Source: Ureibacillus thermophilus
Lineage (GTDB): Bacteria > Bacillota > Bacilli > Bacillales_A > Planococcaceae
Assembly (NCBI RefSeq): GCF_004331915.1
Contig: NZ_CP036528.1
Coordinates: forward strand, 1,130,567 to 1,194,566
Length of the DNA stretch: 64,000 nucleotides
Reading direction: 5' to 3'
Positions within the stretch are counted from its first letter, which is position 1, and each line of letters starts with the position of its first letter. The position numbers and the translations under genes were made by a program. The notes under the pieces were generated by a model. It did no database searches and was not told the DNA's origin. It was given only the letters and a program-made list of their open reading frames with translations. This document shows positions 367 to 37,975 of the stretch, in pieces.

Positions 367-1730
367 TTTACACGTTTACTTCCATATTTCGTGCGGATAC
401 TGCCCCGATTCGTGCGTTTACTTCCTCATTTGGTGCGGATACTGCCACGATTCGTGCGTTTGCCTCCTCCATTCGTGCGGATACTGCATGGTTTCGTGCG
501 TTTACTTCTTCATTTCGTGCGGATACTGCATGGTTTCGTGCGTTTGCCTCCTCCATTCGTGCGGATACTGCCCCGATTCGTGCGTTTGCCTCCTCAATTG
601 GTGCGGATACTGCCCCATTTCGTGCGTTTGCCTCCTCAATTGGTGCGGATACTGCCCCGATTCGTGCGTTTGCCTCCTCATTTGGTGCGGATACTGCATT
701 GTTTTGTGCGTTTACTTCCTCATTTGGTGCGGATACTGCATTGTTTCGTGCGTTTACCTCCTCCATTCGTGCGGATACTGCATGGTTTCGTGCGTTTGCC
801 TCCTCAATTCGTGCGGATACTGCCTCGTTTCGTGCGTTTGCCTCCTCCATTCGTGCGGATACTGCCACGATTCGTGCGTTTGCCTCCTCATTTGGTGCGG
901 ATACTGCATGGTTTCGTGCGTTTACCTCCTCATTTGGTGCGGATACAGCATGGATTCGTGCGTTTGCCTCCTCCATTCGTGCGGATACTGCATTGTTTCG
1001 TGCGTTTACTTCTTCATTTCGTGCGGATACTGCCCCAATTCGTGCGTTTACTTCCTCATTTGGTGCGGATACTGCTTGGTTTCGTGCGTTTGCCTCCTCC
1101 ATTCGTGCGGATACTGCCCCGATTCGTGCGTTTGCCTCCTCAATTGGTGCGGATACTGCCCCGATTCGTGCGTTAGCCTCCTCAATTGGTGCGGATACTG
1201 CCCCGATTCGTGCGTTTGCCTCCTCATTTGGTGCGGATACTGCATTGTTTTGTGCGTTTACTTCCTCATTTGGTGCGGATACTGCATGGTTTCGTGCGTT
1301 AGCCTCCTTATTTAGTGAGGATACTGCTCGGTTTCGTGCGTTTACCTCCTCATTTCGTGCGGATACTAAATCAATTCGTGCGTTTACCTCCTCCATTCGT
1401 GCGGATACTGCCCCGATTCGTGCGTTTACTTCCTCATTTGGTGCGGATACTGCCGGTTTCGTGCGTTTGCTTCCTCCATTCGTGCGGATACTGCCCCGAT
1501 TCGTGCGTTAGCCTCCTCAATTGGTGCGGATACTGCCGGTTTCGTGCGTTTGCTTCCTCCATTCGTGCGGATACTGCTCCATTTCGTGCGTTTGTTTCCA
1601 CAATTCGTGCGGATACCTCCACCTTTCGTGCGTTTACCTCCTCAATTGGTGCGTATACGACCATATTTTGTGCGTATACCCTTCCCATTGGTGCGTATAC
1701 AAACACGATTCGTGCGTTTGCTTCTACCTT
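367..1730 (-). repeat. CGCACGAA array 1: about 32 copies of a 42-bp (2 x 21 bp) unit
   Basis: Two 21-bp half-units alternate. In the + strand they carry TTCGTGCGGATACTG and TTCGTGCGTTTGCCTCC; on the minus strand these are CAGTATCCGCACGAA and GGAGGCAAACGCACGAA. The 4-5 bases that follow the core on the minus strand vary (ATGAG, ACGAG, TCGGG, ACCAT and others). The unit is a multiple of three and holds few stop codons, so long spurious ORFs appear in up to five frames. Units one base short near 1453 and 1533 shift the frame, and one copy has the variant core TGCGTATAC (1650-1700). A leader frame on the minus strand beginning with GTG at 1811 (MPIVVEDVLIGKNPEGE...) runs into the array but loses the frame at 1434. 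Confidence 0.9.
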
Positions 1731-1837
1731 CACTTTTTCCTGCTCCCTCAAATAGTAGGTTTCCCCCTCAGGATTCTTCCCAATAAGTACGTCTTCCACC
1801 ACAATTGGCACAATCCCTAATTACTCCCTCATTTAAA

Positions 1838-1873
1838 TAAAAAAAGCCCCCTGTTCCAAACAGGGTAGCTCAT
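1838..1873 (-). terminator. Intrinsic terminator of ywqA
   Basis: Read on the minus strand, AGCTACCCTGTT pairs with AACAGGGGGCT around a short TGG loop and is followed by a run of seven T. It begins within 60 bp of the ywqA stop. Confidence 0.8.
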
Positions 1874-1889
1874 TATGATAAAGAAGTAC

Positions 1890-4649
1890 CTATCTCTTAG
1901 GCACGCTCGCAGGAACATTCAATAATTCCATCAACTGTTCCTCATCCAGCTCCGTCAACCAGTTGCTCGATTGAATCAATTCTTCCGATAAAGCTGATTT
2001 CATCTCAAGCATTTGGTCCACTTTTTCTTCAATCGTGCCAATGGTGATAAACTTATGCACTTGCACAAATTGCTTTTGCCCAATGCGATAGGCTCGGTCC
2101 GTTGCCTGATTTTCCACAGCCGGATTCCACCAGCGATCTGCATGGAGCACATGACTTGCGGCCGTCAAATTCAAACCGGTTCCGCCAGCCTTCAGCGATA
2201 ATAAGAACACCGGAAATTCCCCGGATTGAAAGGCTTCTACCAACTGGTCCCGCTGTTCTTTCCGCATGCTTCCTGTCAAAAATGGCACGTCCCAGCCATA
2301 AAGTTCAAAGAAGCAATGCTGCAATAATTGCCCCATCCCGATATACTGGGTGAAAATTAGACACTGCTCGCCGCCATCCACAATCTCCTTCGTAAGTTCC
2401 ACAATTCGTTTCAACTTCACTGAACGCGCGAGCATACTATCTGCATCCCCAAACGGTTCCTTCAAATACAGCGCTGGATGATTGCACAACTGCTTCAACT
2501 TGCTCAGCATCTGCAAAATCTTTCCTTTCCGCTCAAAAGGAGAGAGTTTCTCCAAATCCGCCAAACTGTCTTGGATGAATCCTTCATACAGCGCGGCTTG
2601 TTCCTCCGTCAACGGGCAAAACTCTTTCGTCTCCTGCTTATCCGGCAAATTCAGCATTAAATCCGGATCATTTTTCGTTCGTCGCAGCAAAAACGGCCGG
2701 ATTTTCGCCCGCAAAATCTCCTTATGCCGCTCCGAATCATCCCGTTCAATCGGTACAATAAACTCCTCTTGAAACTTCTTGAAACTTCCTAAATATCCCC
2801 GGTGGATGAAATCAAAAATCGCCCACAGCTCGGCCAATCGGTTTTCAATCGGCGTGCCTGTCAATGCAATATGATGGTCCCCTTGCAATCGGCGGATGGC
2901 CTTTGACTGCTGGGTGTGCATATTTTTAATATTTTGGGCTTCATCCAGCGTCACCACCGCCCAATCCACATCCTCTAAAAATTCCACATCCTGCGAAATC
3001 GTGCCATAAGTCGACAGCACCACTTGCGGCGCTTCCGCTTCTACGAACTGATGAAACGCTTCTCCCTTCAAACGCCCGGAAGCATAGTGGGTATGCACTT
3101 TCAAAGATGGGGCAAAGCGTTCAAGCTCCTTCTGCCAGTTCCCCAAAACGGAAGTCGGACAAACGATGAGCGACGGTTTCTTCTCTTGCCAAAACTCATA
3201 CACATACAGCAAATAACTGATGAGCTGCACCGTTTTCCCAAGCCCCATATCATCGGCTAAAATCGCGCCAAAGCCTTGGGAGCGCATAAACACAAGCCAC
3301 TCATAGCCTTGCTGCTGATAAGGACGCAATGTCGCTTTCAAAGATTCCGGCACTTTCACAGGAGGAAGCCCTTGCTTTTCTTGCAACTGATTTACATACG
3401 CCTGCAAAGAACGCTGCATTTCAAAGACAAAGAGCGGGTCGTCCCGTTCAGAATCCTCTTCATCCAACTCTGGTTCTAACAACTCTTCTGGAATCTCTCG
3501 GAACACGAATTCCTTTACCGTCCAATTTTCTTTTTCCGCCTTATCCATCAACGCCCGCACTTTCGCCATCCAATCGTTGTCCAAACGGAACCATTCATTA
3601 CCAATCCGCACAAATTCCCGCTTCTCTTCGACGATTTTACGAAACTCTTCGGGGCTGATGGTTTCTCCCCCAATGGACAGCTCCCAGCGGAAAGATAAAA
3701 TATCATCCAATCCTGCCATGGATTTGGTCGAACTGCTTTGCGCACTGACGCGGACCCGCATTTTTGATTTTTGCAATTCCTTAAGCCATGCAGGGAGAAT
3801 CACTTCAAACCCTAAAGCCGTCAACTTGGCAAAGCCATCCCGCAGAAGCGTTCGTACCTCCGCATCGCTCAACGGCAAATGCAAAAACGCCTCTCCATCG
3901 ACATAAAGCCCCAACAATTGCACCATTTGCTTTTGGATTTGGGCAATTTCCTCTGCATATTCCTTCCATTTTTCAGGAAGCGCCTCCTGAATAGGAAGGT
4001 TCCGCTTTCTTACGGCAGGCGTCCAATGTTTTGCAGAGGAAGGGGATAAAATCACGGTTTCCAAAAGCCATTCATCGTCAGACTCTTCCGGTTCATTCAA
4101 ACGGAGGGCAACTTTCAGCCGGCCAATGGAACGCTCGTTTTGAAGGGGCCAGCCTCCTTCTTTAAAAAATGGAATCAGAGAAGATACATCGGAAATTTGC
4201 AAACCATGCTTCTTCAATTTTTGTTCAAGGGCCTTTTCCAAAAGCTCCTGCTGAAAATCGTCCTCCACCTGCACAGCTAATGTTTCATCTTCAATTTCCA
4301 CTGCATCCCATAAGGAAGGGCTGTTCCACAAAGTTTGACCAGCTTTCAAACTCTCAAGAAGCTTCTGGTCTTCATCAGTCGCTCCTTCAAATTCAGCAAA
4401 AGGGTGTTTTCGCTTTGGCGATAACACTTCCAATAATTCCGCCGCAGTAACGATGAGTCCATCTCCATCTACGACTGCATGCAAGCCGAAAAAGTTGGGC
4501 TCATATTGGAAAAAGAAAATGGAAGCAAAGGTTTCAGCGGGAACCACTCTTCCATTGTTAAATGCCCGAACCGAATATAGCCCTTGCTGCAGCGGCTCAA
4601 AGACTAATTGATAAACTTGTGCAAAAGGATTCACGTGCAAATCTTTCAT
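1890..4649 (-). CDS. ywqA: SNF2/SWI2-family DEAD-like helicase (YwqA type)
   Basis: A 919-residue DNA-dependent ATPase of the bacterial SNF2 family. The first ~440 residues are the family-specific N-terminal region. The RecA-like core follows, with Walker A DDMGLGKT near residue 463, the DEAQ box (DEAQNIKN) near 568, LTGTPIENR, and the C-terminal helicase motifs ending in TDRAYRIGQ. An in-frame ATG 18 codons upstream lies inside the last 53-bp repeat; I chose 4649 because AAAGGAAC sits about 9 bp before it and family members begin close to here. Bacillus genomes pair this gene with a SWIM zinc-finger gene, as here (ywqB upstream, same strand), so a joint role in chromatin or DNA repair is inferred. 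It is preceded by nine tandem micro-ORFs that may control its translation, and followed by a clear terminator. Confidence 0.9.
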   Translation of the reverse strand: MKDLHVNPFAQVYQLVFEPLQQGLYSVRAFNNGRVVPAETFASIFFFQYEPNFFGLHAVVDGDGLIVTAAELLEVLSPKRKHPFAEFEGATDEDQKLLESLKAGQTLWNSPSLWDAVEIEDETLAVQVEDDFQQELLEKALEQKLKKHGLQISDVSSLIPFFKEGGWPLQNERSIGRLKVALRLNEPEESDDEWLLETVILSPSSAKHWTPAVRKRNLPIQEALPEKWKEYAEEIAQIQKQMVQLLGLYVDGEAFLHLPLSDAEVRTLLRDGFAKLTALGFEVILPAWLKELQKSKMRVRVSAQSSSTKSMAGLDDILSFRWELSIGGETISPEEFRKIVEEKREFVRIGNEWFRLDNDWMAKVRALMDKAEKENWTVKEFVFREIPEELLEPELDEEDSERDDPLFVFEMQRSLQAYVNQLQEKQGLPPVKVPESLKATLRPYQQQGYEWLVFMRSQGFGAILADDMGLGKTVQLISYLLYVYEFWQEKKPSLIVCPTSVLGNWQKELERFAPSLKVHTHYASGRLKGEAFHQFVEAEAPQVVLSTYGTISQDVEFLEDVDWAVVTLDEAQNIKNMHTQQSKAIRRLQGDHHIALTGTPIENRLAELWAIFDFIHRGYLGSFKKFQEEFIVPIERDDSERHKEILRAKIRPFLLRRTKNDPDLMLNLPDKQETKEFCPLTEEQAALYEGFIQDSLADLEKLSPFERKGKILQMLSKLKQLCNHPALYLKEPFGDADSMLARSVKLKRIVELTKEIVDGGEQCLIFTQYIGMGQLLQHCFFELYGWDVPFLTGSMRKEQRDQLVEAFQSGEFPVFLLSLKAGGTGLNLTAASHVLHADRWWNPAVENQATDRAYRIGQKQFVQVHKFITIGTIEEKVDQMLEMKSALSEELIQSSNWLTELDEEQLMELLNVPASVPKR

Positions 4650-4653
4650 TGAA

Positions 4654-5155
4654 CTAATGTTCCTTTCTTTGTTTCGAAAATTCCTTCCACCCAATAGCGC
4701 CATAAAACTTAATGGAACTATTCATTTGGAAAATACCTTCCACCCAATAGCGCCATAAAACTTAATGGAACTATTCATTTGGAAAATTCCTTCCACCCAA
4801 TAGCGCCATAAAACTTAATGGAACTATTCATTTCGAAAATTCCTTCCATCCAATAGCGCCATAAAACTTAATGGAACTATTCATTTGGAAAATTCCTTCC
4901 ACCCAATAGCACCATAAAACTTAATGGAACTATTCATTTGGAAAATACCTTCCACCCAATAGTGCTGTAAAACTTAATGGAACTATTCATTTGGAAAATA
5001 CCTTCCACCCAATAGCGCCATAAAACTTAATGGAACTATTCATTTCGAAAATACCTTCCACCCAATAGCGCCATAAAACTTAATGGAACTATTCATTTGG
5101 AAAATACCTTCCACCCAATAGCGCCGCAAAATCTGATGGAACTATCCATTTTCAG
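4654..5155 (-). repeat. Nine tandem 53-bp repeats encoding overlapping 18-codon micro-ORFs ahead of ywqA
   Basis: Copies start every 53 bp (+ strand CCTTCC at 4683, 4736, 4789 ... 5107). On the minus strand each copy holds ATG...TGA for about MNSSIKFYGAIGWKEFSK, with ATGs at 5149, 5096, 5043, 4990, 4937, 4884, 4831, 4778 and 4725. The TGA stop of each overlaps the ATG of the next as ATGA, and AAGGA or AAGGT lies about 9 bp before each internal start. The last copy runs a few codons further and stops (TAG, 4656-4654) four bases before the ywqA ATG. Variants are partly silent (GGC/GGT, GGG/GGA, TCC/TCG) and partly not (GAA/GTA; the outermost copy reads MDSSIRFCGAIG). No copy loses its start or stop. 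Confidence 0.85.
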
Positions 5156-7974: not shown

Positions 7975-8054
7975 GAATTTTAAGGAATGAAATTTTCGTG
8001 CCCTTGAAAATAAAGAAAATCAATAGCTGTTCCCATCGGAAGGAGGGGTTGGGA

Positions 8055-8894
8055 TTGCTTGGGCAATGGTCGGCAACCGGCATGAGGATTTTAAAAAACC
8101 TGAATCAAAACTGGATGTTGGCGAATAAGGCGTTGCTCAGAATTTCTTCTGGCTACCGCATTAACAGCGCGGCAGATGATGCGGCGGGTCTTGCCATCTC
8201 TGAAAAAATGCGGGCCCAAATTCGCGGTCTTGAAATGGCGGGGAAAAACATTCAGGATGGCATTTCCCTCGTCCAAACAGCAGAAGGGGCGCTCAATGAA
8301 ACCCATGCCATCATCCAACGCATGCGGGAACTTGCCATTCAAGCGGCAAGCGATACGCTTACGGATGAGGATCGCCACTTGATCGATATGGAGTTCCAGC
8401 AGCTGAAGGAAGAAATCACAAGAATCTCTAAAGATACGGAATTCAACGCTCGCCCGCTATTGAACGGCGATTACGAAAACAATTCTTTAAGAATACAAGT
8501 AGGCGCCAATGCCGGACAATATATGGAAATCTATATTGGCAGGGCGAGCAGCGCAAGCCTTGGCATAGACGGGCTGGACATTTCAACGAGAGACAACGCG
8601 GATGCTGCAATTGGCGCATTGGATAAAGCCTTAAACCGAGTATCGACAGAACGTGCCCGCCTTGGCGCTTACCAAAACCGGATGGAACACGCCTATAACA
8701 ATGTGATGAACACGGCGGAAAACTTAACGGCTGCCGAATCCCGCATTCGAGATGCAGACATCGCAAAAGAAATGATGAACTACACAAAAGCAAGCATTCT
8801 CGCCATGGCTGCCCAACACGTCCTCGCCCTTCATCTTCAACAAGCCCAATCCATCCTAATGCTGTTGAATGCGGGGAAGAAGGAGAGATATTAG
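8055..8894 (+). CDS. Divergent flagellin (Hag family)
   Basis: About 279 residues with both conserved flagellin ends: SSGYRINSAADDAAGLAISE then KMRAQIRGLEMA near the N-terminus, and ENLTAAESRIRDADIAKEMM near the C-terminus. The hypervariable middle is very short, so this is a minimal flagellin. Two features are odd. The canonical opening (MRINHNIAALNT...) is missing: the sequence enters at ...GMRILKNLNQNWMLANKALL. The C-terminus carries a tail AGKKERY beyond the usual LLR end. Both terminal helices are needed for filament packing in known flagellins, so function is uncertain. I chose TTG at 8055 because AGGAGGGG ends 6 bp upstream; GTG 7998 and ATG 8082 are alternatives. No other flagellar gene is near. 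Confidence 0.8.
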   Translation: MLGQWSATGMRILKNLNQNWMLANKALLRISSGYRINSAADDAAGLAISEKMRAQIRGLEMAGKNIQDGISLVQTAEGALNETHAIIQRMRELAIQAASDTLTDEDRHLIDMEFQQLKEEITRISKDTEFNARPLLNGDYENNSLRIQVGANAGQYMEIYIGRASSASLGIDGLDISTRDNADAAIGALDKALNRVSTERARLGAYQNRMEHAYNNVMNTAENLTAAESRIRDADIAKEMMNYTKASILAMAAQHVLALHLQQAQSILMLLNAGKKERY

Positions 8895-8951: not shown

Positions 8952-9060
8952 TCTTATAGTAATATTCTCTTAAAAACTTTGCTCCTGCGGTGGTCACAAA
9001 ACGCGCCTCCTCGTCGCAAAGGGGGCGTTTCAAAATGACTTTTCAGACGCCCCCTTTTTA
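8912..9060 (-). repeat. Dispersed intergenic element, copy A (inverted relative to 40553-40738)
   Basis: A ~150-bp element bounded by two strong hairpins (8912-8946 and 9018-9059, the second AAAGGGGGCGT/ACGCCCCCTTTTT). Its centre at 8984-9015 is an exact 32-bp reverse-complement match to 40631-40662, and the flanking stretch with CTTATAGTAATATTCTCTTA also matches. Copy B has an extra ~33 bp. No ORF is visible. Confidence 0.8.
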
Positions 9061-9074
9061 TTTTGATTAGAGGT

Positions 9075-9220
9075 GAGGCTTGTCATCTCCTGTTAACCAG
9101 CCTCTTACCCTTTTGAAAATACCGGGTTTTTCTTTTGAATCAGAGGGGAGGCTTGTTATCCCTTGTTAACCAGCCTCTTACACTTTTGAAAATACCGGGT
9201 TTTTCTTTTGAATCAGAAAT
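9075..9220 (+). repeat. Tandem duplication of a 73-bp unit
   Basis: Two copies begin at 9075 and 9148 (GAGGCTTGT...AACCAGCCTCTTAC...AATACCGGG). Each copy holds the small inverted repeat GAGGCT/AGCCTC. They differ at a few bases. No gene is visible. Confidence 0.8.
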
Positions 9221-9329: not shown

Positions 9330-9745
9330 AGAGAGGGTTATTTTACCCAGCGCACGAAATGCTGGGGTGAACGCACCAAAGAGAGGAGCAAACGCACTAA
9401 AGTGAGTAGTATCTGCACCAAATGAGATCACATCCGCACGAAATGAGGAGGCAACCGCACGAAACGAGGCAGTATCCGCACGAAAAGAGGAGGCAACCGC
9501 ACGAAACGAGGCACTATCCGCACCAAATGAGAAGGCAACCGCACGAAATGGGGATGCATCCGCACGAATCGTGGCAGTAAACGCACGAAACGAGGCAGTA
9601 TCCGCACGAAATGAGGAGGCAACCGCACGAATCGTGGCAGTATCCGCACGAAATGAGGAGGCAACCGCACGAAACGAGGCAGTATCCGCACGAAATGGAG
9701 TAATAAACGCACGAAATGGAGCAGTATCCGCACCAAATAAAAAAC
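9330..9745 (+). repeat. CGCACGAA array 2: about 10 copies of the 42-bp unit
   Basis: Same two alternating half-units as array 1, here with GCAGTATCCGCACGAA on the + strand. The first few copies (9348-9420) are degenerate (CGCACCAA, CGCACTAA). Together with the 73-bp duplication and element A it fills the gap between the flagellin and wecC, where I see no gene. The + strand frame entering from 9208 stops at 9405 inside the array. Confidence 0.9.
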
Positions 9746-10043: not shown

Positions 10044-11315
10044 ATGACAAAAACAATGTGTGTGATCGGACTAGGTTATATTGGATTACCAACAGCGGTC
10101 ACTTTCGCAAACCATGGGGTAAAAGTACACGGAGTAGACATCAACCCTAATGCCGTTCGAAGCATTCAAGAGAAAAAATTGCATATTGAAGAACCAGGCT
10201 TGCAAGAACGTCTGAATAAAGCAGTGGATGAAGGGTATTTAACAGCTTCTACAACACCAAAAGAAGCGGATGTATTCATTATTTCTGTACCTTCACCAAT
10301 CAATCCGGACAAAACAGCCAATCTTGAATACGTTCGAGAAGCGACAAAATCCATCGTACCTTATTTAAGAAAAGGCAATCTCGTTATCTTAGAATCAACA
10401 GTACCGCCAAAAACAGTAGAACGGGTGATGATTCCGGAATTAATTCAATCAGGATTGGATATAGGAACAGAATTATTCGTAGCCCATTCACCTGAACGGG
10501 TGATTCCAGGCCGCATCTTTGAAGAATTGGTCAACAATGGCCGCATCATTGGCGGAATCAATAAAAAATCAGCAGAAATGACGAAAGAACTTTATCAACT
10601 TTTCGTGAAAGGTCCCATTCATTTAACAGATGCAACAACGGCAGAACTAGTGAAAGTCATGGAAAATACATACCGTGATGTCAACATTGCGTTCGCCAAC
10701 GAGTTAGCGAAACTTGCTGAAGACCTTGATGTAAATATTTGGGAAGCGATTCATTATGCAAACTTCCACCCTCGCGTAAATATCCACTTCCCAGGTCCAG
10801 GCGTTGGTGGACACTGCATTGCCGTGGACCCATGGTTTTTAGTGGAACTTGGCGGTGAAAAGGCACAAATGATCCACCTTGCCCGAACAATCAATGACGG
10901 CATGCCGCTGTTCACAGCACAAAAAACGCAAAAAATCTTAAATGAAAATAACATTGCGGGCGGCAAAGTAGCAGTGCTCGGCCTTGCTTTCAAAGGAAAC
11001 GTGGACGATATGCGCGAAAGCCCATCATTAGAAGTCATTCACGAACTTCAACAACTCGGGCTAGAAGTTGTTTCCTTCGACCCGCACATTAAAGAAAACA
11101 AACACCCGACGCAAACCCAAAACTTTGAAGAAGCTGTAAACGATGCGGATATGCTGCTTGTGTTGACAGACCATAAAGAATTTAAAGAATACAATCCACT
11201 TTCCATCACGCCGAAAAATAAAATCGTGCTGGATACGAAAAACTGCTTGGATCGCGAAAAATGGAAAGAAGCCGGATTCCAATTTTACTTGCTTGGAGAT
11301 GCAAAAAATAAATAA
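10044..11315 (+). CDS. wecC: UDP-N-acetyl-D-mannosamine dehydrogenase (UDP-sugar 6-dehydrogenase family)
   Basis: 423 residues, the usual length. It oxidises UDP-ManNAc to UDP-ManNAc-uronate with two NAD+. The N-terminal Rossmann fold shows GLGYIGLPTA (residues 9-18) and the catalytic motif GGHCIAVDPWFL begins near 254, with the active-site Cys inside it; the sequence GHCIAVDPWF is typical of the ManNAc rather than the glucose enzyme. AAAGGAAG precedes the ATG. A C-terminal UDP-binding domain follows from ~310. With tagA and the S-layer gene downstream it probably supplies a precursor for a secondary cell-wall polymer that holds the S-layer; that link is an inference from context. It stands alone between a promoter and a strong terminator. 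Confidence 0.9.
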   Translation: MTKTMCVIGLGYIGLPTAVTFANHGVKVHGVDINPNAVRSIQEKKLHIEEPGLQERLNKAVDEGYLTASTTPKEADVFIISVPSPINPDKTANLEYVREATKSIVPYLRKGNLVILESTVPPKTVERVMIPELIQSGLDIGTELFVAHSPERVIPGRIFEELVNNGRIIGGINKKSAEMTKELYQLFVKGPIHLTDATTAELVKVMENTYRDVNIAFANELAKLAEDLDVNIWEAIHYANFHPRVNIHFPGPGVGGHCIAVDPWFLVELGGEKAQMIHLARTINDGMPLFTAQKTQKILNENNIAGGKVAVLGLAFKGNVDDMRESPSLEVIHELQQLGLEVVSFDPHIKENKHPTQTQNFEEAVNDADMLLVLTDHKEFKEYNPLSITPKNKIVLDTKNCLDREKWKEAGFQFYLLGDAKNK

Positions 11316-11400: not shown

Positions 11401-12755
11401 AAGTATCCGCACTAATTGAGGAAGCATCCGCCGAAACGAGTCAGTATCCGCACGAAATGAGGAGGCAACCGCACGAATCGTGGCAGTAAACGCACGAAAT
11501 GAGGAGGTAAATGCACGAAATGGAGCAGTATCCGCACTAATTGAGGAAGCATCCGCCCGAAACGAGGCAGTATCCGCACAAAATGAGGAGATAAACGCAC
11601 GAAATAGAGCAGTATCCGCCCAAAATGAGGAAGCAAACGCACGAATTGGAGCAGTATCCGCACAAAATGAGGAGGCAAACGCACGAATTGGAGCAGTATC
11701 CGCCCGAAATGAGGAGTCAACCGCACGAAATGGGGCAGTATCCGCCCGAAATGAGGAGTCAACCGCACAAAACGAGGCAGTATCCGCCCGAAATGAGGAG
11801 GTAAACGCCCGAATCGAGGCAGTATCCGCCCGAAATGAGGAGTCAACCGCACGAAATGGGGCAGTATCCGCCCGAAATGAGGAGTCAACCGCCCGAAACG
11901 AGGCAGTATCCGCACGAAATGGAGCAGTATCCGCACAAAAGGAGGAGGTAAACGCACGAAACGTGGCAGTATCCGCCCGAAATGAGGATGCATCCGCACA
12001 AAACAATGCAGTATCCGCACGAAATGAGGAGTTAAACGCACGAAATGAGGAGGCAACCGCACGAAAAGGATCAGTATCCGCCCGAAATGAGGAGTTAAAC
12101 GCACGAAATGAGGCAGTATCCGCCCGAAACGAGGCAGTATCCGCCCGAAATGGGGATGCAACCGCCCGAAACGAGGCAGTATCCGCCCCAAATGAGGAGG
12201 TAAACGCACGAAACTAGGCAGTATCCGCACGAAATGGAGTAGTAAACGCACGAAATGGAGCAGTATCCGCACAAAAGGAGAAGGCAACCGCCCGAAACGA
12301 GGCAGTATCCGCCCGAAATGAGGAGATAAACGCACAAAACAATGCAGTATCCGCCCGAAATGAGGAGATAAACGCACAAAACAATGCAGTATCCGCCCGA
12401 AATGAGGAGGTAAACGCACGAATCGAGGCAGTATCCGCCCGAAATGAGGAGTCAACCGCACGAAATGGGGCAGTATCCGCCCGAAATGAGGAGTCAACCG
12501 CCCGAAACGAGGCAGTATCCGCACGAAATGAGAAGGCAAACGCCCGAAATGAGGCAGTATCCGCACAAAAGGAGAAGGCAACCGCCCGAAACGAGGCAGT
12601 ATCCGCCCGAAATGAGGAGATAAACGCCCGAAACGAGGCAGTATCCGCCCGAAATGGGGATGCAACCGCCCGAAACGAGGCAGTATCCGCCCGAAATGGA
12701 GTAGTAACCGCCCGAAACGAGGCAGTACCCGCACGAAATAAAGAACCAAACGCAC
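11401..12755 (+). repeat. CGCACGAA array 3: about 32 copies of the 42-bp unit
   Basis: The largest + strand array. In one frame it reads (AVSARNE)(EVNARNE)n, in another QYPHEMR..., and on the minus strand SFRADTA, HFVRILP and LISCGYC. The heptad frame is broken by a missing base near 11435 and by an in-frame TAG at 12215, so a protein product is unlikely. Many half-units here carry CGCCCGAA instead of CGCACGAA. It fills the gap between wecC and the 66-bp repeats with no gene visible. Confidence 0.9.
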
Positions 12756-12843
12756 CAAAACAAAAAAACACTCACAATACAAATAATCCCCCTGCAAAAC
12801 GGGGAGCTTTTTGATAAGATTATGAAGGGGAACCGGCCGAAGA

Positions 12844-13306
12844 CATTTTCGTCCTTATAATAAAGTAACGCGCATGGGAAATCGCTCGTCAAAATGCCGC
12901 AAAGTAGCCATTTTGTCCTTATAATAAGCTAACTACTTTCCTTAGTTAGAAGTAAAACCACCTCCAAGTTTCATGGGGTTTCACTAACTAAAAACGTTGG
13001 ACACAAAATTATATCCTTCCCCTTCCATGTCCTACATGAATGGGGTTTCGCTAACTAAAAACGTTGGACACAAAATTATATCCTTCCGCTTCCATGTCCT
13101 ACATGAATGGGGGTTTCACTAACTAAAAACGTTGGACACAAAATCGCCAAGAAAATCGCACCACCCCCTTAGCGGCTGTCGCACATGCTTAGCTGCGGAT
13201 AAACAACCGAGCAAGCGTTTTTTAATTCCGCAGCACAAAAGCTGTCGCACATGCTTAGCTGCGGATAAACAAAATCGCCAAGAAAATCGCAACAACCCCG
13301 ATCAGA
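12844..13306 (+). repeat. Modular direct repeats with a 65-68-bp step
   Basis: Several sequence modules recur at nearly one spacing. CATTTT...GTCCTTATAATAA occurs at 12844 and 12909. CTAACTAAAAACGTTGGACA occurs at 12984, 13051 and 13119. GCTGTCGCACATGCTTAGCT occurs at 13175 and 13241. ATCGCCAAGAAAATCGCA occurs at 13143 and 13274. Neighbouring units share halves, as if assembled from interchangeable pieces. The frame at 13132-13341 that crosses it is made of these repeats and is not a gene. Confidence 0.8.
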
Positions 13307-13365: not shown

Positions 13366-14091
13366 ATGAACATGAAAGAAACAGTACTAGGCATAAAAGT
13401 AAACACTGAAAACTACGACGAACTCATTGAACAAATTTTTGAACGCATTAACACGAAACAAAAATCGCTCATTGTCGCAATCAACCCGGAAAAAATCATC
13501 AAAGCGAAAAAAGATCCGGCGCTGGCCAAACTTTTAAACGAAGCGGAATTTCAAATCCCAGATGGCATTGGAGTCATCCTTGCATCCAAAATCCAAAAAG
13601 GGCAAATCCGGTCGCGGGTGACGGGAGTAGACCTGATGATGCGCATTTGCGAAGAAGCGGCAAAACGACAAAAATCCATCTTCCTATACGGGGGAAAGCC
13701 GGGCATTGCCTTAACAGCCGCTGAAAAACTAAAACAGCTATACCCGGGCATTCAAATTGCCGGCGTGCAGCACGGCTACGAAAAAGACAACGAAAAAGTC
13801 GTTGAAAAAATCAACAACGCCAAACCGGACATTCTTTTCGTTGCCATGGGAAGCCCGAAACAAGAAAACTGGATCAACGCAAACCGCGATCGCCTTTACC
13901 CAACCATCTACCAAGGCGTGGGGGGAAGCTTTGACGTGCTTGCGGGGAACGTCAAACGGGCGCCGGTGGCTTTTCAAAAATTAGGGCTTGAATGGTTTTA
14001 CCGCCTATTAAAAGAACCGAAGCGCATCAAACGCCAAATCAAATTGCCGCTGTTCCTAATCGAAGTCGCCCGCAGCACAAAACGCAAGTAG
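13366..14091 (+). CDS. tagA: WecG/TagA/CpsF-family N-acetylmannosaminyltransferase
   Basis: 241 residues of glycosyltransferase family 26. The family moves ManNAc from UDP-ManNAc onto undecaprenyl-PP-GlcNAc, the second step of the linkage unit for wall teichoic acid or similar polymers, on the inner face of the membrane. Family signatures seen are NPEKI, PDGIGV, TGVDLM, FLYGG, VAMGSPKQE and GVGGSFDVLAG near residues 186-196, plus a basic C-terminus (LEWFYRLLKEPKRIKRQ) that docks on the membrane in known members. ATG 13366 and ATG 13372 are both possible, the Shine-Dalgarno being weak (GGATGG). TATAAT at 13337-13342 may be its -10, with no good -35. It fits with wecC upstream in ManNAc-based polymer synthesis. 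Confidence 0.88.
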   Translation: MNMKETVLGIKVNTENYDELIEQIFERINTKQKSLIVAINPEKIIKAKKDPALAKLLNEAEFQIPDGIGVILASKIQKGQIRSRVTGVDLMMRICEEAAKRQKSIFLYGGKPGIALTAAEKLKQLYPGIQIAGVQHGYEKDNEKVVEKINNAKPDILFVAMGSPKQENWINANRDRLYPTIYQGVGGSFDVLAGNVKRAPVAFQKLGLEWFYRLLKEPKRIKRQIKLPLFLIEVARSTKRK

Positions 14092-16168: not shown

Positions 16169-19100
16169 ATGGCTAACCAACCAAAGAAGTACAAAAAATT
16201 CGTAGCAACAGCTGCTACTGCTACATTGGTTGCTAGCGCAATCGTACCAGTTGCATCTGCTGCTAGCTTCTCTGATGTTGTAGTAGGTGGCTCACATTCT
16301 GAAGCAATCAACGCTTTGGCAGATCAAGGCATCATTAAAGGTTATGCAGACGGCACATTCAAACCAGGTGTGCAAATCAACCGCGGACAAACGGTTAAAT
16401 TATTAGGCCGCTGGTTAGAATCACAAGGTTATGAAATCCCAGCTGATTGGAATTCTGTACAACGCTTCAGCGATGTTCCAGTAAACGCTGCTGACCAAGA
16501 ATTAGTGAAATATGCTGCATTAGTTAAAGATGCTGGCGTATTCAACGGTTCTCAAGGCAAATTAAACGCTTCTCAACCAATGCAACGTCAACATATGGCA
16601 GTTGTATTAGTGCGTGCAATTAAAAACGTATTAGGCGAAGACCTTGTACAACAATACAAAGATGCTGGCTTCGTTTCTAGCATTGAAGACTTATACCAAG
16701 CATATGCAAACGAAAACCGCGAAGCAATCATCGCGTTAGAATATGCAGGTATTACAAAAGTTTCTGACGGCAACTTCCGTCCAACTCAAACAGTAACGCG
16801 CGGTCAATTCGCATCATTCTTATACCGCACAATCAACCTTGATACACTTAACGCAACAGTTGAATCAATTAAAGCAATTAACAACACAACTGTTGAAGTA
16901 GACTTCAAAGAAGCAATCGACAACGTGAACGCACTTAAATTCACAATCGATGGCTTACAAGTGAAAAACGCTGTTGTAAAACAAACTGACAAAACTGTAG
17001 TCGTATTAACAACAGCTCCACAAGAAGGCGGCAAAACTTACACAGTAAGCGAAAGCGGCAAAAAACTTGGTACATTCCAAGGTGTATCTGCTGTAATTCC
17101 TACTGGCATTTCAACAGTAGTTGCTTCTCAACAAGGTGTTATCGGTCAACAAGTAACTGTTTCGGCACAAGTAAAAGTTACTGAAGGCCAATCTAAAGCT
17201 GGAATCCCTGTAACATTTAACATTGTGAATAGTAATAGCAATGTTAACGATAAAATTGAAGTAGAAGCTTACACAGACGAAAACGGTGTAGCAACATACA
17301 CTTATACTCGTTACTACAGCGGAACAGATAACGTAGTTGCATATGCAACAGATAAGTCATCCGTAAACGATAAAGCAAAAGTTTATTGGGATAATGCTCT
17401 TCAATTAACAATTTCAGATGTTACTACAGATTCTACATTAGCAAATGGTAAAAATAAAGTTTACCAAATTGAATCAAAAAATAACAAAAACGGCTATGTA
17501 TTTGTTACTTTTGCAGAAAACTTAAATGTTGCACCTGATAAATTAGTGAAAACTGTAAATGCTCAAGGCGTTGCAACATATCTTCTTGACTCAAATGATA
17601 GAGTAACTGCAAATCGTGCAGACTATCCATACGAAGCAACTACTGGTGGAAAAGCAGTAATTGCAGTTAAACTTGATTCTAACGGTAAAGCTAATTTAGT
17701 TTTATCCGGAAAAAATGCTTCAGTTACACCTATCGTATTTGAAGGCGAATATGTTGGTAATAATATTACACCACAAGCTTATAAAGCTAAATACGATAAA
17801 ACTGCATTACAAGCAAAAGGGTCTACTGTAACATTTGAATTAAAACATGAACTTGGTTTAACAGTAGAAGCTATTGGAAATGCTAATGCTGCAACTTATA
17901 TTAACTCAACTGAAACTGGTGGACGTGACTATAAAGTTAAATATGTTGATAAAGAAGGTAAACCAGTTGCACAAGGTTCAAAAGTAAGAGTAGCAATTGA
18001 TACTGAAGGAGTTACTGGTACTTTCCGTTTATTAGATGCTGATGGTAATGAAGTTACAGCATATTTAACTGATGGTAAAGTTAAATATTATGAATTAACA
18101 ATTGGTAAAGATGGTGAAACTACATTTACAGTTACAAGTACACATGTAAATGATTATGTAACACCAGTTGTATTTGTAGATAATGGTAAAACAGCTCAAA
18201 AATTAGATGATCAAGATTTACAATCTAAATCTGAAACTACTTACTTTGTTGCTGATGTAACTTATAACGCAAAATTAAAAGTACTAGGTGCTGATGGCAA
18301 AGAAGCAAAACCTGTTTTGGCTAATAATAGTGACTATGTTGACTTTGTTTATGAATTAGTTGACCAAAACGGAAAACCTCGACGAGCTTCTAGTGCAACT
18401 GATGTTACATTTAATATTACTGCTGGAGCAGGAACAATTGTAACTGAAAATGGTGACGTTGCTCCTGGTAATAGTACATCAGTGACAAAAACTATTTCAG
18501 CATCATCAACAAAAGCAACAACAAGAGTTAAAGCAAAAGAAGCTTCTGTAGTTTCTGTTACAGCAACTGGTTCAACTGCTGGGGTTGTATTACCAACTAC
18601 TGAACCAACATCTGCAACTGCTACATTCTTAAGCACTCAAGAGTTAGTTAATGGAACTGTTTATACAGGTACTGTTAGAGCTGTAGATAAAGCTAATAAT
18701 AAAGTAACTTTATTAATTAATGGTAAAGAACATACTGTAAGTTATGAAAATGGAAATTACTACATTGGTGGAACAAATAAATCATTTGTAGATTTTGAAG
18801 AAGCATTGAGTTATGGAGATACTGTCAAATATGTACCAGGTACTACTCCGCACTTTGATATTACTGTCAATATAACTGATACTACTGCTCCTTCATTAAG
18901 TAGTGCAACTTATGCTTCAGCTCAACCAGCAAAAAGTAATAGTTATGCAACAGGAGATATTGAATTATCTGGCGGAGAAAAATTAACATTTACTGCTACT
19001 GAGTACAGTGAAGAACTTAATGGAACAAAAGTTGTGTTAGTAGATAATGTAGCTAGCTCTTCTACAACAGCTACTGTTGGCGTAGATGGTAATGGTAATA

Positions 19101-19543: not shown

Positions 19544-19602
19544 TATTATTATTTAAGTATACAAAAAACCCTGTGGAGCAAGAACTCTTGGATCTATAAT
19601 AT

Positions 19603-19687: not shown

Positions 19688-19716
19688 GAACAAAAAAAAC
19701 ATACTAAGATTGTAAA

Positions 19717-19880
19717 CCCGAATTCAAACGACGCATTTCAACCAATCGCACCTCCCTGTAAGATAGAGTTATCGATTACAGAGGAGGTGTTTTGTAAGCC
19801 CGAATTCAAACGACGCATATCAATCGATCGTACCTCCCTGTAAGATAGAGTTATCGATTACAGAGGAGGTGTTTTTGTTT
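19717..19880 (+). repeat. Tandem duplication of an 82-bp unit with a hairpin
   Basis: Copies begin at 19717 and 19799 (CCCGAATTCAAACGACGCAT...). Each holds the long hairpin ACCTCCCTGTAA / TTACAGAGGAGGT. The descending arm of the second copy supplies the AGGAGGTG that precedes the frame at 19879. Confidence 0.85.
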
Positions 19881-20133
19881 GGCAGTTGAAAAAAATGAGA
19901 AGGTATCCGCACTAAAGGGGGAAGTATCCGCACTAAATAGGGAAGCAAACGCACAAATAGGAGCCGTATCCGCACTAAATGAGAAGGTATCCGCACTAAA
20001 GGGGGAAGTATCCGCACTAAATAGGGAAGCAAACGCACAAATAGGAGCCGTATCCGCACCAAAGGGGGAAGTATCCGAACTAAATGAGAAGGTATCCGCA
20101 CCAAAGGGGGAGGTAAACGAACTAAATGAGTAG
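19879..20133 (+). CDS. Possible 84-residue heptad-repeat peptide read from array 4
   Basis: A TTG start 7 bp after AGGAGGTG opens a frame MAVEKNEKVSALKGEVSALN and continues through array 4 to a TAG at 20131-20133. The 21-bp period gives 7-residue repeats with V and L at a and d positions (VSAL, VSAL), which is a plausible coiled coil. Against it, the ribosome binding site lies inside a hairpin, and sister arrays are not kept in frame. I rate it as a possible gene only. Confidence 0.25.
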   Translation: MAVEKNEKVSALKGEVSALNREANAQIGAVSALNEKVSALKGEVSALNREANAQIGAVSAPKGEVSELNEKVSAPKGEVNELNE

Positions 20134-20215
20134 GCAAACGCACCAAAGGAAGCCGTATTTGAACCAAATGAAGAGACACCCTACCAAATATAGCTGCATC
20201 CGCATCAAAATAAGG
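19893..20215 (+). repeat. CGCACGAA array 4: about 8 copies, with an 84-bp higher-order duplication
   Basis: Degenerate member of the array family (GTATCCGCACTAAA, GCAAACGCACAAAT). The block starting GAGAAGGTATCCGCAC at 19899 is repeated 84 bp later (two 42-bp units). The last copies lose the core (20140-20215). No gene follows until 20538; a hairpin stands at 20355. Confidence 0.85.
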
Positions 20216-33390: not shown

Positions 33391-34830
33391 GTGCGAAAGA
33401 GACGATTTTTTTTCATTTTAGCCATCATTTGCTTATTCCTTGCTTTCATTGTGTATTGGAAAAGCGCGATGAAACCGGAATCGGAAGTGAAAGGAAGCGA
33501 TATCCCAGTTATTGACCAAACATTTCATTTGATTAAAGAAAAATCCGTTTATGATACAAAAGATGAGGAATTGATTGAAGGCGCATTAAGAGGAATGACG
33601 GAAGCGATTAAAGATCCATATAGCACCTACTATACAGAAAAAGAAGCGGCCATTCATCGTCAATCATTGGCAGGACAAAGGGTAGGGATTGGTATTGAAA
33701 TAACGGAAAAGGATGGACGATTTATTGTTGTCTCCCCAGTGAAGTCTTCTCCGGCAGAAAAAGCAGGAATCCGTCCATATGATGAAATTGTGGAAGTGGA
33801 TGGCGTCCGTTTAGAAGGCAAAACTCTTGGAGAATTGCTGCAATTAATCCAAGGAAACCCTGGTGAAAAAGTGACGCTGGTCATTTATCGGCCAAGCACA
33901 GACAGGCATATTAAAATCACTGTGGAACGGGCAGAAATTGATAATCAGACCGTTACAGGGAAAGTGATTCCGTTAGATGACTTGAAAATAGGCTATGTTT
34001 CCATTTCGATGTTTGGAGAGGAAACGTTGGAAGAATGGATTGAATCAACAAAACGGCTTTTATCGGAAAATGTAGATGGGATGATTATTGATTTAAGGGA
34101 CAATCCTGGCGGGTATTTACATAGCGTCGCCGGTGTAGTAAGCAGCATTGGAAAAGAAGGAACGGTGTTTGCCTATATGCAAAATGCGCAAGGGATGATG
34201 GAAGCAATAAAAACGACAAAGCTGGATGTGGATGAAGAGTACGCAAAACAAATGAAAAAGATGCCGTTAGTAGTTCTTCAAAATGAGGGAAGTGCATCGG
34301 CAAGCGAAGTGATGGTAGGCGCAATGAAAAGTTGGAAACGCGCCATTGTGGTGGGAAGCAAGAGTTTTGGAAAAGGAACAGTGCAAGAAACGTACGATTT
34401 GAAAAATGGCGGAGAATTGAAATTATCTACGAATAAATGGCTCACGCCAGATCGGGAATGGATTCACGGAATAGGAATTGAATCGGATATTGAAGTAGAA
34501 CAACATCCATTGTTCGCGATGGAAATTGTGCCGCTGCGGGGAGAGTTTGCAGAAGGAGACTATAGCGAAGAAATAGCTTATGTTCAGAAGGTGTTAAACG
34601 GTTTAGGATACAATTTGGAAAGAACGGATGGATTTTATGATGAAGAAACGGCAGAAGCAGTCGCCTCCTATCGAGAAAAATTTAAGTTGAAGAGGGGAAG
34701 ACATATGGATGATGAATTCTTCGCAAGCATTCGCGAAAAAGTAGTTTTATTTAAAGAAGATATGGAACAGGATGTACAGCTGAAAATGGGATTAAATGTT
34801 ATCATGCATAAAATTAAAGGGGACATTTAA
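33391..34830 (+). CDS. ctpB: Carboxy-terminal processing protease CtpB/CtpA (S41)
   Basis: 479 residues, anchored by one N-terminal helix (~5-22). The S41 order is visible: a PDZ domain (~95-180, VGIGIEITEKDGRFIVVSPV, AGIRPYDEIVEVDG), the core with IIDLRDNPGGYL, and the catalytic Ser in EGSASASE (~308) with Lys in SKSFGKGTVQ (~335). A C-terminal peptidoglycan-binding domain follows (~390-450, VQKVLNGLGYNLERTDGFYD). In B. subtilis CtpB lies beside ftsEX and minJ and cleaves SpoIVFA during sporulation. GAGGAGG stands 7 bp before the GTG start. Confidence 0.9.
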   Translation: MRKRRFFFILAIICLFLAFIVYWKSAMKPESEVKGSDIPVIDQTFHLIKEKSVYDTKDEELIEGALRGMTEAIKDPYSTYYTEKEAAIHRQSLAGQRVGIGIEITEKDGRFIVVSPVKSSPAEKAGIRPYDEIVEVDGVRLEGKTLGELLQLIQGNPGEKVTLVIYRPSTDRHIKITVERAEIDNQTVTGKVIPLDDLKIGYVSISMFGEETLEEWIESTKRLLSENVDGMIIDLRDNPGGYLHSVAGVVSSIGKEGTVFAYMQNAQGMMEAIKTTKLDVDEEYAKQMKKMPLVVLQNEGSASASEVMVGAMKSWKRAIVVGSKSFGKGTVQETYDLKNGGELKLSTNKWLTPDREWIHGIGIESDIEVEQHPLFAMEIVPLRGEFAEGDYSEEIAYVQKVLNGLGYNLERTDGFYDEETAEAVASYREKFKLKRGRHMDDEFFASIREKVVLFKEDMEQDVQLKMGLNVIMHKIKGDI

Positions 34831-35239: not shown

Positions 35240-36232
35240 ATTGAGTGTGTTTGCTTCTTCAATTCGTGCGTTTACTACTCCCTTTGGTGTGGATACTGCT
35301 CCATTTCGTGCGTTTGCTTCCTCCATTCGTGCGGATACTGCCTCGTTTCGTGCGGTTACTACTCCATTTCGTGCGGATACTGCCACGTTTCGTGCGATTG
35401 CTCCTCTCTTTTGTGCGGTTGCTTCCTCCATTCGTGCGGATACTGCATTGTTTTGTGCGTTTACCTCCTCCATTCGTGCGGATACTGCCTCGTTTCGTGC
35501 GTTTGCTTCCTCAATTCGTGCGGATACTGCCTCGTTTCGTGCGTTTGCTTCCTCAATTCGTGCGGATACTGCCTCGTTTCGTGCGTTTACTTTCTCATTT
35601 GGTGCGGATACTGCCTCGTTTCGTGCGGTTGCCTCCTCATTTGGTGCGGATACTGCATTGTTTTGTGCGTTTACCTCCTCCATTTCGTGCGGATACTGCT
35701 CCATTTCGTGCGTTTACTTTCTAATTTGGTGCGGATACAAACACGTTTCGTGCGTTTACCTCCTCATTTCGTGCGGATACTGCTCCATTTCGTGCGTTTA
35801 CTTTCTCATTTGGTGCGGATACAAACACGTTTCGTGCGGTTGCCTCCTCATTTCGTGCGGATACTGCCACGTTTCGTGCGGTTACTACTCCATTTCGTGC
35901 GGATACTGCCTCGTTTCGTGCGTTTACTACTCCATTTCGTGCGGATACTGCCCCGTTTCGTGCGATTGCTCCTCTCTTTTGTGCGGTTGCTTCCTCATTT
36001 CGTGCGGATACTGCCTCATTTCGTGCGGTTGCTTCCTCATTTCGTGCGGATACTGCATTGTTTTGTGCGTTTACCTCCTCAATTCGTGCGGATACTGCCT
36101 CGTTTCGTGCGTTTATTCCTCCATTTCGTGCGGATACTACCCCGTTTCGTGCATTTGCTTCCTCATTTCGTGCGGATACTGCTCCGTTTCGTGCGTTTGC
36201 TTCCTTATTTCGTGCGGATACTGCCGCATTTA
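35240..36232 (-). repeat. CGCACGAA array 5: about 24 copies of the 42-bp unit
   Basis: Same family as array 1 and in the same orientation, with TTTCGTGCGGATACTG alternating with TTTCGTGCGTTTAC or TTTCGTGCGGTTGC on the + strand. One extra base near 35684 and an in-frame stop near 35730 break the heptad frame on the minus strand. It separates ctpB from minJ, which are close neighbours in related genomes. Confidence 0.9.
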
Positions 36233-36300
36233 TTTGTCATAATGGATTCTTTTATTGCATACATATGATAAAATAGGAAATTTTTTTAAATTCAAAGAGG

Positions 36301-36602: not shown

Positions 36603-37772
36603 GTGATAGAAGAGATTTTATTAGAATTCTTAAAAGCTATAGCTAGAATGTTTATGAACCCTCTATTGTATATGGCAATTATCATGGCAATTTTTCTTGG
36701 ATATGTGCGTGTCAAAAGGGAAAGAAAGTTTTTCAAAACCCGGATTTTGTGGGGATGGACGGAATTGGTTGGGCTCATTAAAGAAGGGATTTGGTTTGCA
36801 CTGATTATTTCTGTGCTCAGCCTGCTTGTTGGATTAACTCAATCTATAGAGTTGCTATTTTTCGTTGCAGCTTTTAGCATCTTTGGCTTGATTCTATATA
36901 ATTTCCATCTTCTTTCCCCAATGGTCCTTATTGGGTTGAGTCTCGCATCTTTAATGGTGATGAATGAAGAGCATTGGTCATTTGAGATATTTGGATGGAA
37001 AATTCAAGGACTGGATGTGTTCGAAGGTGCGGCTGTTACATGCGCACTCATGGCTGGGATATTGCTAATTGCAGAAAGCCGTTTAATTAAAAAATATGGT
37101 GTGAATTACGCTTCGCCAATGATTGAGAAGTCTAAAAGGGGATTACATGGTGTTGCGTTTTTTACAAAGAAATTATGGCTGTTGCCCATTTTTTTCGTCG
37201 TTCCGGGACAAGCTATTGATGCGTATTTTCCTTGGTGGCCGCAATTTTCGCTAAATCATCAACAATTTGCGTTAGTTTTATTTCCATTTCTTATTGGATT
37301 TCAGCAAATAACGAGACGTTCTTTGCCGTTGGATGTGTATCCTAAGTTGTCAAGAGCGGTTTGGATTTTAGGAGGACTCGTTCTTATTGGGGGGCTGGTC
37401 GGTTATTTTTATCCAATTGCAGCGGTTGTAGCAGTATTTGCTGGAGCCATCATTCGCTTATTTATATCGTATATTTTTAAAGTGCGGGAACGACGTGATG
37501 TATATGCGGTTTCTGCTCGTCCAAATGGTGTGATGATTGCAGCGGTTTTACCAGAATCACCAGCGGAAAAAATGGGGCTGCAAGCGGGAGAAATTATCCG
37601 TAAAGTGAATGGCCGTGAAGTGCATAATGAATTGGAGTTGTATGAAGCACTTCAAATCAACGCCGCTTATTGCAAATTAGAAGTGTTGAATCATAAAAAT
37701 GAAGTGCGGCTAACCCAGCATGAAGTGTATAGTAAAGACCATTACCGCATTGGATTGTTAATTATTGAGTAG
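36603..37772 (+). CDS. minJ: Cell-division topology protein MinJ
   Basis: 389 residues. Several membrane helices (about seven) fill residues ~10-300, and a PDZ domain lies at the C-terminus (~305-385, VMIAAVLPESPAEKMGLQAG then EIIRKVNGREVHNELELYEA). MinJ links DivIVA at the poles to MinD and so places the division inhibitor. The match rests on the architecture and on the position after ctpB, as in B. subtilis (minJ near ctpB and ftsEX). A GTG start at 36603 follows GGTGGGATGA closely. A terminator follows. Confidence 0.85.
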   Translation: MIEEILLEFLKAIARMFMNPLLYMAIIMAIFLGYVRVKRERKFFKTRILWGWTELVGLIKEGIWFALIISVLSLLVGLTQSIELLFFVAAFSIFGLILYNFHLLSPMVLIGLSLASLMVMNEEHWSFEIFGWKIQGLDVFEGAAVTCALMAGILLIAESRLIKKYGVNYASPMIEKSKRGLHGVAFFTKKLWLLPIFFVVPGQAIDAYFPWWPQFSLNHQQFALVLFPFLIGFQQITRRSLPLDVYPKLSRAVWILGGLVLIGGLVGYFYPIAAVVAVFAGAIIRLFISYIFKVRERRDVYAVSARPNGVMIAAVLPESPAEKMGLQAGEIIRKVNGREVHNELELYEALQINAAYCKLEVLNHKNEVRLTQHEVYSKDHYRIGLLIIE

Positions 37773-37823
37773 AGATATGAAGGGTGCCTTTTTATAAAGT
37801 GAACATTCTTATTTAAGTAGTAC

Positions 37824-37862
37824 GGCTTAATTCTCGGAAAGGGATTAGGCCATTTTTTTATT
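37824..37862 (+). terminator. minJ terminator
   Basis: GGCTTAAT pairs with ATTAGGCC (one G-T pair) and is followed by ATTTTTTT. Confidence 0.6.
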
Positions 37863-37886
37863 TTTAGAGGGAGTGGGGAGAAATAA

Positions 37887-37975
37887 GGATGAGGCAGTAT
37901 CCGAACAAAAAAGGGAGGTAAACGCACGAAATGAGGCAAAATACACACCAATAAGGAAGAAGAGACATTAAATGA
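37887..37975 (+). repeat. CGCACGAA array 6: short degenerate remnant
   Basis: About two 42-bp units: GAGGCAGTATCCGAACAA, GGAGGTAAACGCACGAAAT, then decayed copies (GGCAAAATACACACCAAT). It lies between the convergent minJ and azlD genes. The minus-strand frame 37742-38068 through it is not a gene. Confidence 0.65.

Follow-up and report, generated by a model that had tools for sequence, protein, structure and literature searches.

The window, as we call the whole stretch of 64,000 nucleotides of the Ureibacillus thermophilus chromosome that was analysed, carries six tandem arrays of one repeat family, dispersed among genes for a helicase, cell surface and flagellar proteins, enzymes and a PDZ-domain protein that may, to judge from its neighbourhood, be MinJ-like (Table 1). 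The positions given for these arrays in the first-pass annotation were reproduced by TRF for five of the six, without the 89-bp array 6, and by a motif-chain scorer for all six, with no further array detected in the window (spans 387-1719, 9348-9737, 11405-12759, 19905-20209, 35262-36219 and 37899-37952). The scorer was derived from the arrays of several species, and its lowest array score was 35, compared to 18 for the best of five first-order Markov controls scored on both strands. The six arrays total 4,540 bp or 7.1% of the window, as had been estimated (about 4.5 kb, about 7%). The two alternating 21-bp half-units described at first reading could be followed unit by unit as GTATC and GYAAM. 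Equally, array 3 does favor CGCCCGAA, with 28 occurrences versus 21 of CGCACGAA. The step, initially considered constant, is nearly always 21 bp, with exceptions in array 1 (two units of 20 bp), array 3 (one of 20 bp) and array 5 (one of 22 bp). The placement of all arrays between genes holds insofar as none of the 39 arrays of the genome lies inside a long ORF, but in a crude ORF-based gene call two arrays overlap a neighbor by 13–14 bp and array 6 falls within one ORF of 108 amino acids, which we take to be spurious.

Table 1. Arrays of the repeat family in the window, the two genes used as anchors for the cross-species comparison, and two arrays from Bacteroidota (positions within the fetched loci L011 and L013).
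Feature	Position (strand)	Repeat content	Neighboring genes or use
Array 1	367..1730 (-)	61-64 units (two of 20 bp, the others of 21 bp)	downstream of SNF2 helicase gene 1890-4703
Array 2	9330..9745 (+)	17-19 units	flagellin gene 7998-8894; nucleotide-sugar dehydrogenase gene 10044-11315
Array 3	11401..12755 (+)	64-65 units, CGCCCGAA-rich	dehydrogenase gene; WecG/TagA-type glycosyltransferase gene 13366-14091
Array 4	19893..20215 (+)	12-15 worn units	after S-layer-homology protein gene 16169-19543
Array 5	35240..36232 (-)	46 units	S41 C-terminal-processing peptidase gene 33391-34830; PDZ-domain protein gene 36603-37772
Array 6	37887..37975 (+)	remnant, 2-3 units	after PDZ-domain protein gene
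Nucleotide-sugar dehydrogenase gene	10044..11315 (+)		first anchor
PDZ-domain protein gene	36603..37772 (+)		second anchor
Chitinophagaceae MAG array	L011:4410-4730	14 units, ATCCGCACGAAG	
Flavobacteria MAG array	L013:1060-1340	12 units, alternating AAACGCACGAAG / AACCGCACGAGG	

Array edges appeared more worn than array centers by eye. Other tandem repeats outside long ORFs were seen in the window at 4672-5151, 9055-9217, 12973-13144, 19588-19685 and 19710-19875, with periods of 53, 73, 67, 48 and 82 bp, respectively; several of them directly adjoin arrays 2, 3 and 4, and two of the periods, 53 and 73 bp, approximate five and seven turns of the helix. A piece resembling an IS1182-family transposase (window 3-296; E 1e-8, 34.5 bits versus a family cut-off of 270), which is open at the window edge, adjoins array 1. 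Urease had no match in the genome.

The family extends far beyond the window. Array 1 had 42 BLAST matches in its own genome, and the surrounding stretches were then parsed for arrays with a 21-bp position matrix. The resulting whole-genome count, which the first-pass annotation had suggested as a check, comprises 39 arrays distributed over 24 stretches (the window among them), with 657 units and 14,336 bp or 0.48% of the 3.02-Mb chromosome, while mononucleotide shuffles of 8 of the 24 stretches yielded no arrays with the same matrix. Clustering along the chromosome is modest (variance/mean 1.93, p 0.002; 38 merged loci in 100-kb bins, 10,000 random placements), and 12 of the 38 loci lie within 150 kb of the contig ends. 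An origin effect was rejected as explanation for this cluster because the GC skew switches elsewhere, between 0.27 and 0.51 Mb and between 1.83 and 2.19 Mb; near-zero skew was found in two fetched stretches at 0.58 and 0.68 Mb. Neither a concentration of arrays at the skew switches (by eye) nor a bias for one replication strand was detected: 18 of 39 arrays are on the leading strand if the origin is placed at the contig end, and 19 of 39 in a hand recount with the GC-skew switches. The gaps that contain arrays are convergent in 13, tandem in 20 and divergent in 6 of 39 cases according to the crude ORF-based genes, compared to 33, 90 and 41 of the 164 gaps of more than 100 bp that these stretches contain in total, those with arrays among them.

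Within this genome, the columns of the unit differ strongly in their constancy. Units at a lag of 42 bp (570 pairs from all in-phase slots of the genome-wide arrays) mismatched in 0–4% of the pairs in columns C1, G2, C3, C5, A7, A8 and A19, in 15%, 11% and 17% in columns 14, 17 and 20, and in 24–38% in the remaining columns, among which the spacer columns 9–13, 15 and 16 had 25–38%. The 8-bp core claimed at first reading is thus nearly constant at positions 1, 2, 3, 5, 7 and 8, to which the A three bases upstream can be added, but not at positions 4 and 6, with 13% and 31% mismatch. Calling bias is small in this comparison because the in-phase slots left uncalled by the matrix (17 of 674) were included, and the column pattern was the same before adding them. 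On the question whether the core is conserved above its flanks, on which the proposal of a site array had been made to depend beforehand, the core was found to be kept and the spacers to be varied, both here and across genomes.

Relatives carrying the family were sought among 261 genomes of the taxonomic family by searches that scored 12–20 candidates per genome and missed some dialects, so that all counts are lower bounds: an exact-pattern search with two mismatches found 16 genomes (with single matches in several), profile R1 found 15, and the broader profile R2 found 32 from 8 of 19 genera; among the 25 genomes of the own genus, R1 found 11 and R2 found 12. One genome without an R2 match (G022) nevertheless contains an array of 22 units. 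A sample of the class contained four R2-positive genomes among 398, all four within the same taxonomic family. The unit in the fetched arrays of relatives mostly has 20–21 bp, with dimers of 40, 41 or 42 bp and different spacers, and the cores, among others CGGACGAA, CGCCCGAA, TGCACAAA, GTGATCAAAA and CGCCCAAG, are close to A-W-V-Y-G-N-N-C-N-A-R; the core A-W-V-Y-G-N-N-C-N-A-A combined with a step of 20–21 bp recurs across 16 genomes. Thirteen of the 25 genomes of the genus lack an R2 match, and since several arrays of other motifs with a 20–21-bp step occur in some of these, the step may be more widespread than the core.

Arrays of other motifs with periods of 20–21 or 101–103 bp, such as TCGCAAATA and ATATTTACGC, were observed at L175, L184, L186, L188, L191 and L193 (L numbers denote fetched loci). 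Related species additionally contain 52-bp tandem arrays, corresponding to about five helical turns and by eye in some cases with inverted-repeat content, at L088, L091, L166, L193 and L076. Arrays with the dialect ATCCGAGCAAG in the relative G021 (L083:947-1291 and L134:3732-4044) directly adjoin an array of the CGCACYAA type.

The cross-species set comprised 17 genomes with 107 array segments and 1,872 units, or 106 and 1,851 without one G013 array that was counted doubly through the overlap of loci L084 and L139; some arrays are split into segments. In a comparison between 16 of these genomes (G015 was left out), mismatch was 0.71–0.75 in spacer columns 10–17 and 0.62 in column 18, where 0.73 is expected from composition. 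The best-kept core columns G2, C5 and A7 had 0.13, 0.06 and 0.13, followed by A8 with 0.28, A-3 with 0.33 and Y1 with 0.48, and columns 3, 4 and 6 with 0.64–0.71; the scorer and the profiles select core-bearing arrays, so these core values are optimistic, while the spacer values and the in-phase slots are little affected. When steps from 12 to 35 bp were admitted at one penalty, 1,450 of 1,508 were 20 or 21 bp and 1,487 were 19–22 bp. Periods detected by TRF in the fetched loci, most of which had been fetched for the presence of these arrays, centered on 20–21, 41–42 and 84 bp. The core was contained in the consensus of 186 of the 223 TRF arrays with a period of 19–22 or 40–43 bp, and the 37 arrays without it included some two-copy repeats and some arrays of other motifs with the same step.

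Several arrays recur at the same address in relatives. Eight of the ten arrays fetched from G021 share with an array of the U. thermophilus genome (G000) the adjoining gene, the side on which they lie and the orientation, but have different spacers. For this comparison, the proteins flanking the G000 arrays were located in the ten G021 loci and gene order was checked by hand; the same gene was found on both sides in L077, L079 and L081 and on one side in L078, L080, L082, L083 and L134; in the case of L082 and L083, a further gene is located in the far-side gap. The two non-matching arrays were two genes away from a G000 array (L068) or without a matching flank (L135). L068/L070, L074 and the G009 locus L072 were not retained as shared addresses, since one or two genes separate them from the G000 array. 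No G000 array adjoins the array near 1085923 in G009. The G021 counterpart of array 1 (L134) also lies downstream of the helicase ortholog; it is oriented alike but has different spacers. Array 6 corresponds to an aligned G021 gap with approximately four ATCYGAGCAAG-type units in 21-bp steps on the same strand, which were recognized by eye and are missed by the scorer. At the gene at 1086747, a clear same-strand array in the gap was present only in G000 and G021 among 25 genomes; the G009 array is one gene away, and an array on the other strand was present in G007 and weakly in G017.

The most widely shared address is that in front of the nucleotide-sugar dehydrogenase gene, where 12 of 18 genomes with orthologs of at least 75% identity, this one included, have an array within about 1 kb. 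All 12 arrays are on the strand of the gene and none was found on the other strand there, although those in G002 and G024 are weak; a stricter regular expression found chains of four or more units in 11 of the 18 genomes, with G002 at the shuffle maximum. No array precedes the gene in G009, G014, G005, G016, G001 and G023, in which the full 1.5 kb upstream were read. A flagellin gene lies within 1.5 kb of the dehydrogenase locus only in G000 and G009 of the 18 genomes.

Other arrays seem not to be shared with relatives. Array 5 was present in one of 24 genomes and absent from the 1.5 kb before the orthologous PDZ-domain gene in all 23 others, where TRF likewise detected no array with a period of 19–22 or 40–43 bp. 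None of the 15 other genomes with a sufficiently long locus had a counterpart of array 3 on the same strand, the loci of G009 and G003 among the 17 ending less than 200 bp from the dehydrogenase gene and being uninformative; G015 has an array on the other strand. Array 5 thus seems to be private to this genome, and array 3 probably is as well. Since these two lack (same-strand) counterparts in relatives, individual arrays are dispensable. Comparison of the gaps holding arrays 5 and 3 with the corresponding empty sites of relatives revealed neither a target duplication nor a clean junction. Exact copies of a unit more than 5 kb away were found for 278 of 746 units in 25 of 41 array segments of G000, whereas separate fetched loci had no exact units in common in G021 (0 of 411 units), G020 (0 of 90), G017 (0 of 99) and G003 (0 of 75); 42 of 92 shared units in G013 represent one array present in two overlapping loci. 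This difference probably reflects recent exchange of units between loci, or the founding of arrays, in the G000 lineage. Copy number at one locus common to G015 and G021 was 9 units (L070) versus 72 units (L068). The comparative picture suggests that units spread and turn over and that arrays come and go.

We interpret the arrays as a non-coding, rapidly turning over satellite family, the core of which would be held by sequence-specific protein contact every second helical turn, and assign this reading a probability of roughly 60%. One constrained turn and one free turn in every two, in arrays that are individually dispensable, is what would be expected of protein sites on one face of the helix. 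The suggestion of the first-pass annotation that the family is an array of binding sites for one protein is strengthened by the kept core, the free spacer and the two-turn step of the relatives, but it has to accommodate a core that is less constant than supposed and the signs of turnover and spread. The unit of 20–21 bp would then consist of the 11-bp core A-W-V-Y-G-N-N-C-N-A-A, corresponding to one helical turn, and a free spacer forming the next. A putative host-encoded, sequence-specific DNA-binding protein would contact the core once per two turns, so that its protomers may be aligned on one helix face, and binding would preserve the core, either because selection acts on the array or because amplification is limited to bound units. 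Slippage and recombination would turn over the spacers, move units between loci and found new arrays, a route of spread that we infer. Any cellular role may lie in nucleoid organization, segregation or local regulation. For the nucleoid, partition or condensation factor given as examples in the first-pass annotation, the modest clustering and the even strand distribution speak neither for nor against. Sequence alone cannot separate a protein serving the cell from a motif serving the amplification of the array itself.

The latter is the essence of the most serious alternative, a self-propagating minisatellite without host function, in which the core is recognized by the replication or recombination machinery as a stall, nick or hotspot motif and units that keep the core are amplified and transferred to further loci. 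The exact units common to distant loci, the private arrays and the large length difference at the locus shared by G015 and G021 are all in line with such an element. However, arrays whose neighboring gene and orientation recur across species persist for longer than would be expected of purely selfish elements, and recent spread between loci is not general, as the four relatives without exact sharing show. We regard this explanation as unlikely on balance, yet as one to be reckoned with. A clearly improbable alternative is that the shape of intrinsically curved or flexible DNA, rather than a protein contact, is maintained, with A-runs bending the helix every two turns. Most units contain C-N-A-A-A/T at intervals of 20–21 bp, and runs of A4–A5 occur in the units of G017 and G008, but G2 and C5 are among the strictest bases, which curvature does not explain, and the A-run in the present genome mostly comprises three bases.

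A function at the transcript level, as 3' UTR, small RNA or termination array, could be suggested by the gene upstream of the array, which is on the strand of the array in 25 of 39 cases (crude genes), and by the Bacteroidota arrays discussed below, which follow homologous genes. Against it speak the lack of a fold significantly better than shuffles in all 8 segments analyzed (z -0.99 to 2.62), the lack of an Rfam match in window 1-40000 and the 8 of 39 arrays that lie antisense between two co-directed genes, versus 12 in sense orientation, so that we consider such a role very unlikely.

Coding heptad repeats, or pseudogenes derived from them, were rejected and retain hardly any probability. 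The frame GCA CGA AAT GAG would encode heptads of the ARNEAVS type, but the column pattern fits no reading frame: the free columns 4 and 6 are never both third positions, and columns 7 and 19 are fixed although they are third positions of the open heptad frame. Furthermore, units of 20 and 22 bp shift the frame, the 41-bp dimers of G017, G020 and G024 exclude continuous translation in these genomes, and the arrays have no common start. The small number of stops in several frames of both strands results from the composition of the unit itself. In array 4 alone (window 19860-20150), a good ribosome site and a TTG start were recognized by eye, followed by approximately 84 codons of coiled-coil-like heptads and a stop. 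A minisatellite decaying neutrally without any constraint, to which the seemingly more worn array edges might point, can practically be dismissed, as one set of columns is conserved across many arrays of this genome and recurs in other species.

Known classes of repeats resemble the family in some features and differ from it in others. Array 1 had no plasmid or phage match, and two viral contigs contained one unit pair each. Plasmid replication iterons, too, repeat a conserved motif directly at a distance close to two helical turns, but they are accompanied by an adjacent rep gene, and no Rep domain was found among the scanned proteins flanking the arrays of the window. Bacterial VNTRs and minisatellites are similarly non-coding tandem repeats that vary in copy number between relatives, as in the case of 9 versus 72 units, whereas the core and step of the present family are common to dozens of loci and across species with a free spacer. 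CRISPR arrays have a long invariant repeat and unique spacers of equal length, in contrast to the 8–11-bp core and the spacers recurring within and between arrays observed here. REP/BIME and bcr elements likewise form dispersed intergenic families within one genome but are described as palindromic or stem-loop elements, while the 8 folded segments gave no significant structure. Alpha satellite with its CENP-B box combines higher-order dimers, fast monomer turnover, one short kept box and species-specific variants; the present arrays differ from such eukaryotic protein-box satellites in being bacterial, dispersed in intergenic gaps and built from a unit of two helical turns.

The parC sites of type II partition systems (e.g. 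pSK41 and R1), which are bound by an RHH protein, resemble our arrays as direct tandem repeats that span about two helical turns: the repeat length is 20 bp in pSK41, and steps of 20 or 21 bp predominate in our set (1,450 of 1,508). Each repeat of parC binds one ParR dimer and the DNA is wrapped on a protein super-helix (PMC5016525). A parC site is a single locus upstream of its own par operon, compared to 39 chromosomal arrays of up to 65 units here, and no par gene or ParR-type domain was found among the scanned flank proteins of the six arrays in the window. The parS sites of chromosomal ParB/Spo0J are palindromic and dispersed around the origin (PMC5016525), in contrast to a core that is not palindromic and to arrays that are not concentrated at the skew switches by eye.

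Similar arrays may exist outside the Bacillota. An exact scan of a named genome collection returned five loci, of which three had only two in-phase units and the other two are the Bacteroidota arrays listed in Table 1. Both of these lie just downstream of genes that are homologous to each other with 50% identity, and the adjoining gene has no Pfam or NCBIfam family above cut-off and no relative in plasmids or viral contigs. As L011 and L013 were found via the exact core, their likeness may be due to ascertainment or to chance among many 21-bp arrays.

To our knowledge, satellite DNA that retains a protein box is not known from bacterial chromosomes, and a literature search on Planococcaceae, Bacillales, Flavobacterium and minisatellite or satellite topics, with most subscription papers outside its reach, found no prior description of this repeat family among the papers listed. 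As a tentative conjecture, which we ourselves consider doubtful, the family could be a bacterial counterpart of centromeric or heterochromatic satellites, with a dedicated, rapidly co-evolving and filament-forming binder on the arrays, species-specific dialects, persistence of the step and of many addresses and, if the Bacteroidota arrays belong to it, an occurrence beyond this taxonomic family. If a binder exists, it would establish a chromosome-wide scaffold that evolves like the centromere satellites of eukaryotes, and the arrays would provide a simple system to study how satellites retain a motif and an address during turnover and how they move between loci. Even if the family is selfish, it would represent a clean bacterial case of motif-dependent amplification.
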